Virus record (IMG/VR): IMGVR_UViG_3300030329_001927
Coordinates: 1-28,037 of that record
Origin: a virus
Length of the DNA stretch: 28,037 nt
Direction: 5' to 3' (one strand)
Shown here one piece after another: positions 15,558 to 16,491 of the stretch. A program made the position numbers and the translations under genes. A model generated the notes under the pieces. That model was not told where the DNA came from. It did no database searches and saw nothing but the letters and a program-made list of their open reading frames with translations. Within the stretch, counting starts at the first letter, position 1. The number at the start of each line of letters is the position of its first letter.

Positions 15558-16421
15558 ATGCGTAATAGAATCCTACAAAAGTCATTTTGGACATCATCAG
15601 AAATCATAGAACTTGAGATCCATGAAAGATTATTGTTTCTTGGAATGACCAACCATGCAGATGATGAAGGTATCATTAAAACTGCTCCAAGAGCCTTGAA
15701 AGCAAAGATATTTCCTGCTGATAATATGTCTGTAGAAAAAATCGAGAATGCATTGTTTAAAATGAGAGAATTAGGCTTAATCATATTTAATGAAGATGCA
15801 ACTTTATGCAGGTTTGTTAACTGGTTTGAATTTCAGAAAATCAATAGACCATATCCATCTAAATTTAACTTTGTCGAGGAGAAAAAAAGTGATTCAGTGA
15901 ACATTCATGGAACATTCAGTGAGCATTCACTCCCTAATAATAATAATAATAGTAATAATAAAAAGAAAAAGAATAATAAAAATAAAACTAATAAGTCTGT
16001 CTTTTCTAATGAATTTGAATCTTTTTGGAAAACATATCCAAGAAAGGTAGCCAAGAAAAAGTGTTACGATAAGTTTAATAGCTTACTTATAGACTTTAAA
16101 TTAGAGGAGATAATAGAAGGATCATCTTTATGGATACAATACTGGAAAACAGCCAAAACTCGCAATGAGTATATACCACATCCATACACCTTTCTAAATC
16201 AAGAACGGTTTATAGACATTCCTGATGAATTGCAGGGAGATTATGAGTTGGAGTTTAGATTAGACACATCAGGCAATTTTTTTATAGGATACTGTGCAGG
16301 TTGCAATGAGAGTTCATTCTACAGAAAAGAAGAATTAACAAGAGATTCAAGATGCTGTGGAAAGAACATTAATCCTGAACGAGAAATGGTGCGAATACAA
16401 GAAGTAAATGCAAAGGCTTAA
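15558..16421 (+). CDS. Replication initiator (winged-helix / O-like) with C-terminal zinc site (287 aa)
   Basis: Residues about 1-95 form a phage initiator-type winged-helix domain (FWTSSEIIELEIHERLLFLGM, then a DDEGIIKTAPRALKA stretch and VEKIENALFKMRELGLI). A low-complexity Asn/Lys linker follows (about 125-150). A second domain begins FSNEFESFWKTYPRK and contains HPYTFLNQERF. The end has CAGC (246-249) and a CC pair (266-267), a probable zinc ribbon. This two-domain layout matches phage initiators that bind the origin and load the host helicase. The gene contains iteron-like repeats and an AAT-rich tract at its linker, as in lambda O. GGGGC (15548-15552) is a modest ribosome site. Confidence 0.78.
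   Translation: MRNRILQKSFWTSSEIIELEIHERLLFLGMTNHADDEGIIKTAPRALKAKIFPADNMSVEKIENALFKMRELGLIIFNEDATLCRFVNWFEFQKINRPYPSKFNFVEEKKSDSVNIHGTFSEHSLPNNNNNSNNKKKKNNKNKTNKSVFSNEFESFWKTYPRKVAKKKCYDKFNSLLIDFKLEEIIEGSSLWIQYWKTAKTRNEYIPHPYTFLNQERFIDIPDELQGDYELEFRLDTSGNFFIGYCAGCNESSFYRKEELTRDSRCCGKNINPEREMVRIQEVNAKA
15889..16000. other. Candidate replication origin: 11-bp iterons plus AAT-rich unwinding tract
   Basis: Three head-to-tail 11-base repeats, GTGAACATTCA (15897-15907), TGGAACATTCA (15908-15918) and GTGAGCATTCA (15919-15929), are preceded by a shortened copy, GTGATTCA (15889-15896). Seven bases later begins a nearly pure A+T tract of AAT triplets and A runs (15936-16000). Because 11 is not a multiple of three, the encoded peptide is not repeated, so the repetition is at DNA level. 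One repeat per helical turn beside an A+T-rich tract, inside an initiator gene, is the classic arrangement of a phage origin. Confidence 0.65.
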
Positions 16422-16491
16422 ATTCATGGGGTGGCTACCCTCCTTATCAATCTCATCCATGCGTACGAACATGGTCACCCTGTGAGTTATT
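16422..16491 (+). other. G+C-rich, hairpin-prone gap of unknown role
   Basis: This 70-base gap is about half G+C, clearly above the A+T-rich surroundings. It can form three small hairpins: GGGT-GGCT-ACCC (16429-16440), CCATG...CATGG with an eight-base loop (about 16457-16474), and TCAC-CCT-GTGA (about 16475-16485). It contains no convincing gene: ATG 16426 gives only 19 codons before TGA. A packaging or cos-type site, or a structured RNA leader, would fit; none is proven. Confidence 0.35.

Follow-up and report, generated by a model that had tools for sequence, protein, structure and literature searches.

A probable replication origin inside the linker-coding part of a phage initiator gene, and related 11-bp iteron arrays across a large initiator family

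The DNA studied here, referred to as the window, is the whole 28,037-base stretch of virus record IMGVR_UViG_3300030329_001927, in which a direct terminal repeat of 99 bp was found; the end repeat implied by the 27,938-bp circle of a first-pass annotation is thus real. It contains a replication initiator gene (Table 1) whose product matches PHROG families 270, 2149 and 1408, described as 'replication initiation protein', in a profile search (E 2.2e-25, 1.7e-18 and 4.8e-18, respectively), the match to this PHROG 1408/2149/270 type extending across the N-terminal domain. Searches with the protein returned no Pfam family above the cut-off (E 0.01) and chance matches only among PDB sequences, and the PDB search with the initiator profile gave the C-terminal domains of DnaT as its sole matches. 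The AF2 model predicts a winged-helix N-terminal domain (H21-33, E39-41, H44-51, H59-71, E75-78 and E83-86, with pLDDT mostly 93-98 by block), a disordered linker and a C-terminal domain of the helicase-recruiting type, with helices at 150-159, 166-179 and 182-198 modelled at moderate confidence; PHROG matches over residues 123-228 include primosomal and DnaD-like families. The disordered segment, at about codons 112-146 between the two folded domains, is what the repeat array and A+T tract described below encode, and the predicted disorder bears out the earlier placement of both in the linker of a two-domain initiator.

Two DNA methyltransferase genes lie upstream of the initiator gene, and a RusA-like resolvase and the large terminase are encoded downstream. 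PHROG profiles recognised no helicase or loader gene among nine neighbouring proteins tested. Since all genes annotated here lie on one strand, GC skew is uninformative as an origin marker: it is positive across the whole window and carries no origin signal. At the C-terminal end of the initiator (16293-16358), a C-x2-C ... C-C pattern conserved in six of six members of the window's clade is suggestive of a small zinc-binding domain.

Table 1. Coordinates of the initiator gene and of the features in and next to it.
Feature	Position	Strand	Basis or remark
Replication initiator gene, 287 aa	15558..16421	+	PHROG matches; AF2 model
N-terminal winged-helix domain, codons 1-110, presumed iteron binder	15558..15887	+	AF2; common to array-bearing proteins
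Iteron core 1, TCAGTGA	15894..15900	+	within unit 15892-15902
Iteron core 2, TCATGGA	15905..15911	+	within unit 15903-15913
Iteron core 3, TCAGTGA	15916..15922	+	within unit 15914-15924
Iteron core 4, half-site TCACTCC (shortened unit)	15927..15933	+	register kept in L004-L008
A+T tract, presumed DNA-unwinding element	15935..15994	+	lowest stability in the window at 60 and at 80 bp
C-terminal helical domain, codons 150-198, DnaD-like-loader resemblance, presumed helicase recruitment	16005..16151	+	PHROG; AF2
Imperfect long hairpin, 17 bp, immediately past initiator stop codon	16421..16488	+	six clade members

The three tandem 11-bp repeats and partial fourth claimed by the first-pass annotation were found at 15892-15930, the units being ATTCAGTGAAC, ATTCATGGAAC, ATTCAGTGAGC and the partial ATTCAC (15925-15930). 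The four cores are spaced exactly 11 bp apart, with TCANTGA recurring once per 11 bp, and a pair of TCANNGA at 11 bp occurs at one place only in the window genome, the initiator linker. The argument that a unit length not divisible by three implies selection on the DNA itself holds. When the initiator gene was randomised synonymously 5000 times, a non-triplet tandem repeat of equal strength arose in 6 cases; over the whole window, the array's score for such repeats is exceeded by the neighbouring A+T tract alone. Single-strand folding of the array is not unusual (z -1.4), and a hairpin origin is therefore not favoured.

The tract next to the repeats, reported earlier as nearly pure A+T, has 56 A+T in 60 positions and is by nearest-neighbour energy the least stable stretch of the entire 28 kb at both 60 and 80 bp. 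It is C-poor on the plus strand and begins with nine TA[AG] triplets, the longest such run in the window (three at most elsewhere), before becoming A/G-rich; because it reads in frame as poly-Asn/Lys, its sequence by itself cannot be told from coding in the window phage. The locus presents what is looked for in an iteron-type origin, namely phased repeats at a single place, beside a tract of low stability and in an initiator gene.

Five IMG/VR contigs (L004-L008) encode initiators 55-59% identical to the window protein. The first-pass annotation had looked to relatives for repeats kept despite drift, and 11-bp phasing is present at the same place in all five, two of which carry a different unit and three eroded ones. 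L004 and L005 retain the phasing with the unit replaced by GGTTCAGGAAT, L006 and L008 are left with two cores and half-sites, and L007 has a single perfect core yet keeps TCA at all four registers; the one perfect core of L007 and the two and a half of L006 and L008 count against the origin reading. In each of the three contigs with the TCA unit, the TCANNGA pair at 11 bp occurs once, in the initiator linker. The peptide encoded by the array differs among these relatives. Where residues are identical to those of the window, codons are identical too at 12 of 16 positions in L004, 12 of 13 in L006 and 9 of 10 in L007 over the array and the start of the tract, against 28/63, 35/64 and 37/64, respectively, over the N-terminal domain.

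The same core also stands in the same linker of initiators less than 35% identical to that of the window, from phages of Klebsiella, Gordonia, Corynebacterium and Streptomyces. IMG/VR was then searched by DNA alone with TCASTGANNNYTCANNGANNNYTCASTGA, which describes three phased TCANTGA cores, and with the mirrored pattern as control, giving 100 stretches for the pattern and 0 for its mirror. Among the matches listed, 66 of 80 loci (28 clusters at a loose cut-off, many being near-identical copies) carry the array inside a frame with the same N-terminal domain, and some of the array-bearing initiators share less than 30% identity with that of the window. A second class, with TCGCGA every 11 bp, was predicted from mycobacteriophage BIB3 and Propionibacterium phage PFR2 before the IMG/VR search, which returned at least 120 stretches for it vs 5 for its mirror; 72 of 80 loci among the matches listed lie inside such initiator frames, compared with none of the five control loci. 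These arrays sit at codon ~60 and at codon ~110-130. The initiator family is present in phages of Mycobacterium, Gordonia, Pseudomonas, Vibrio, Escherichia, Myxococcus and others. Several isolates that lack TCANTGA have other phased repeats, and several initiators with the same N-terminal domain, for example that of Mx8, have other repeats or none that are recognisable. In L046, L065, L111, L238, L242 and others, arrays are present not only in the linker but also at codon ~60, where the DNA-binding domain is encoded.

Directly 3' of the array, most family members carry a C-poor repeat tract of GGGAA (5 bp), GGGAACA (7 bp) or GGGGAACA (8 bp), and another group has TGATTCC repeats (7 bp) within the linker; these 5/7/8-bp tracts are often out of frame. 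The TA[AG] triplets and A/G-rich DNA are the window phage's counterpart of the C-poor tracts in distant members. Unwinding elements of the DnaA-trio and RK2 13-mer types likewise consist of a short repeated motif adjoining the initiator boxes, and the nine triplets next to the window array resemble a DnaA-trio, a likeness that the GGGAA, GGGAACA, GGGGAACA or TGATTCC tracts of other members do not share. In L024, L028, L032 and L223 (Gsput1, Austintatious, PSonyx and Che8), the first three kinds of tract fit by eye a G-quadruplex pattern, understood as four G-runs with short loops, at the presumed origin of these GC-rich members; the idea was not adopted, as the AT-rich tract of the window does not fit the pattern. 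Nor does phase variation through 5/7/8-bp coding tracts account for the triplet tract of the window.

What the array-bearing proteins have in common is the N-terminal domain, with phrog_1408 matched by 32 of 32 aligned members, whereas their C-terminal domains vary (DnaD-like, DnaT, Phg_2220_C and others), and the array therefore most likely serves the N-terminal domain, the putative binder. This domain occurs in 425 phage records, including proteins named 'RepA-like replication initiator' by SEA-PHAGES such as Che8 gp78, and in the position corresponding to the window array Che8 shows a weak repeat of 11 bp along with a C-poor tract. By Foldseek the best match of the N-terminal domain is 4pta, an 'MDR initiator', which is weak (E 0.06, TM 0.48 on the target), and VIA-align gave Z below 8 for all chains, with generic winged-helix matches; as no Z of 8 or more was reached, no structural relative is claimed. 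Iteron sequence and an N-terminal HQ-x-I-N-R-P motif appear to covary: NRP or NRK goes with TCANTGA, IDRP or IDKP with TCGCGA and ISKP with TTCAGGA, and NPH-x-KE occurs in phages with the TGATTCC tract. Within the window clade, L004 and L005 have ISKP for INRP and also a changed iteron. Across classes the pairing, viewed on about 29 sequences and phylogenetically confounded, is suggestive.

Taken together, these observations favour reading the window array and tract, with a probability of roughly 0.84, as an initiator-dependent (theta) origin of the phage, set within the linker-coding stretch of the gene for its initiator, binding and activity being presumed; that the array locus is the origin can be strongly inferred. 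In the proposed mechanism, the winged-helix domain would bind one face of the helix at the four TCANTGA-type cores, phased at 11 bp, the bound assembly would strain the adjacent A+T tract, which would then open, and the C-terminal domain would recruit the host replicative helicase, the host being proposed as its source because of the lack of a recognised helicase or loader gene among the neighbouring genes tested. Binding, tract opening and helicase recruitment by the initiator are established for lambda (PMC5043065), and the analogy with lambda O drawn by the first-pass annotation stands, in that the initiator gene contains iterons and an A+T tract between the parts encoding two domains. In lambda, too, the origin is found within gene O between the N-terminal DNA-binding part and the C-terminal part, and four iterons are followed by an A-rich tract with the same polarity as in the window (PMC5043065). 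However, the lambda iterons are inverted repeats of 18-19 bp, 20-24 bp apart, whereas the window units are of 11 bp with a short palindromic core, and the window protein, matching no Pfam family, is not a Phage_rep_O protein. A second precedent is RepA_N of plasmid pSK41, whose winged-helix N-terminal domain binds boxes central in its own rep gene, the linker encoded by the box region being dispensable (PMC5703833); the window initiator differs in lacking Pfam RepA_N (PF06970) and in belonging to a phage rather than a plasmid, and as to fold the comparison comes to the weak 4pta match given above, which is not significant. For RepA of cluster A mycobacteriophages, set beside the window initiator by description only, no recognisable repeats were reported and the origin was guessed to lie in or near repA (PMC7157519). 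The best reading is that the window origin would work like the lambda origin in gene O and the RepA_N origins while being, by sequence, a member of neither group.

The alternative that survives best, though unlikely, is that the array is an intragenic operator, bound by the N-terminal domain to repress or count the expression of its own gene, with replication starting elsewhere. A winged-helix domain with palindromic-core sites would suit such a role, as would the second array at codon ~60 in some members and the distal arrays 18-28 kb away in some contigs. However, the array lies in the middle of the gene and not at a promoter, promoter-like sites within the initiator gene are at chance level, the least stable tract of the genome directly follows the array and the window has no other array of the same kind. 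Also in favour of the origin reading, in four contigs (G003, G004, G005 and G011) a TCANTGA array lies away from the initiator gene, with such an initiator encoded elsewhere in the contig, and in three of them the initiator gene also bears an array of its own. The outlying array of G003, G004 and G011 (the records of L068, L081 and L080) is a second one at the distance just given, which might be an additional origin, a site for titration or a partner in handcuffing. Non-coding arrays of at least ten TCAGTGA units at 11-bp spacing are present in L043 and L088, in whose contigs no initiator of the window's family was found.

Synonymous-codon permutation holds the protein and codon usage fixed and so isolates selection at the DNA level. 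In a non-redundant set of 37 genes, chosen for the similarity of their proteins, cores are paired at 11 bp 141 times vs 2.7 expected, and 32 of the 37 genes are individually significant at 0.01. Spacings of 11, 22, 33, 44 and 55 stand out in this set, with a few pairs at 32, 43 and 54. A set of 24 genes, from the window clade and isolates, gave 16 pairs vs 0.25 expected and is the less clean test, since some isolates were retained because prior matches had shown arrays. Serine codons inside the arrays are TCA or AGT only, a bias set aside as evidence in favour of the permutation test since it is partly circular, the codons being fixed by the motif. Conservation of the array at the DNA level across a large initiator family is shown here. 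This bears on the very improbable explanation that a conserved linker peptide (S-V/L-N-x-H-G-x-L-T/S-E-x-S-L) is what is maintained, the DNA pattern being a by-product of coding. The encoded peptide does recur in distant members, but peptide-preserving permutation destroys the 11-bp phasing, close relatives keep the phasing with a changed peptide, arrays are found outside reading frames too and the TCGCGA units of other members encode different peptides. A functionless recent local tandem duplication, to which the tandem layout and the identity of certain units within one genome would point, is hardly credible, as it is contradicted by the conservation of these cores, likewise positioned, in phages whose hosts are unrelated and by the zero or few matches for mirrored control patterns.

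For most sequenced phages the origin has not been mapped, and the recurrence of the 11-base signature at the equivalent position of matching genes in many distantly related phages points to previously unmapped origins. On balance, though with less assurance than for the window locus itself, we favour the joint reading that one large, mostly uncharacterised phage initiator family shares one origin design together with a readable initiator-origin recognition code; the design would comprise palindromic-core 11-bp iterons in the linker coding of the initiator, often also at codon ~60, and after them, in most cases, a C-poor tract whose period is often non-triplet. In-gene iteron origins as such are already known. 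The literature searched, that outside subscription journals, contained no matching description of in-gene phage iterons with 11-bp units and no published origin for phages with PHROG 1408/2149/270 initiators; nor did it describe this iteron family, its spread or the second array where the DNA-binding domain is encoded. If the reading is true, a short DNA pattern and one protein domain would predict the origin in hundreds of phages, many of them grown in teaching and research laboratories, many in-gene origins would share one design, and the paired initiators and sites would form a natural set from which to learn how a winged-helix domain reads an origin. The array would also be a clear case of one stretch of DNA carrying a protein message and an origin message in different registers.

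A further element of the region is a long hairpin 3' of the initiator gene in six of six clade members (the window and L004-L008), whose pairing looks conserved while the stem sequences differ. The hairpin, which lies at 16421-16488 in the window, has no U-run and no Rfam match, and it could belong to the origin region or be an RNA element.
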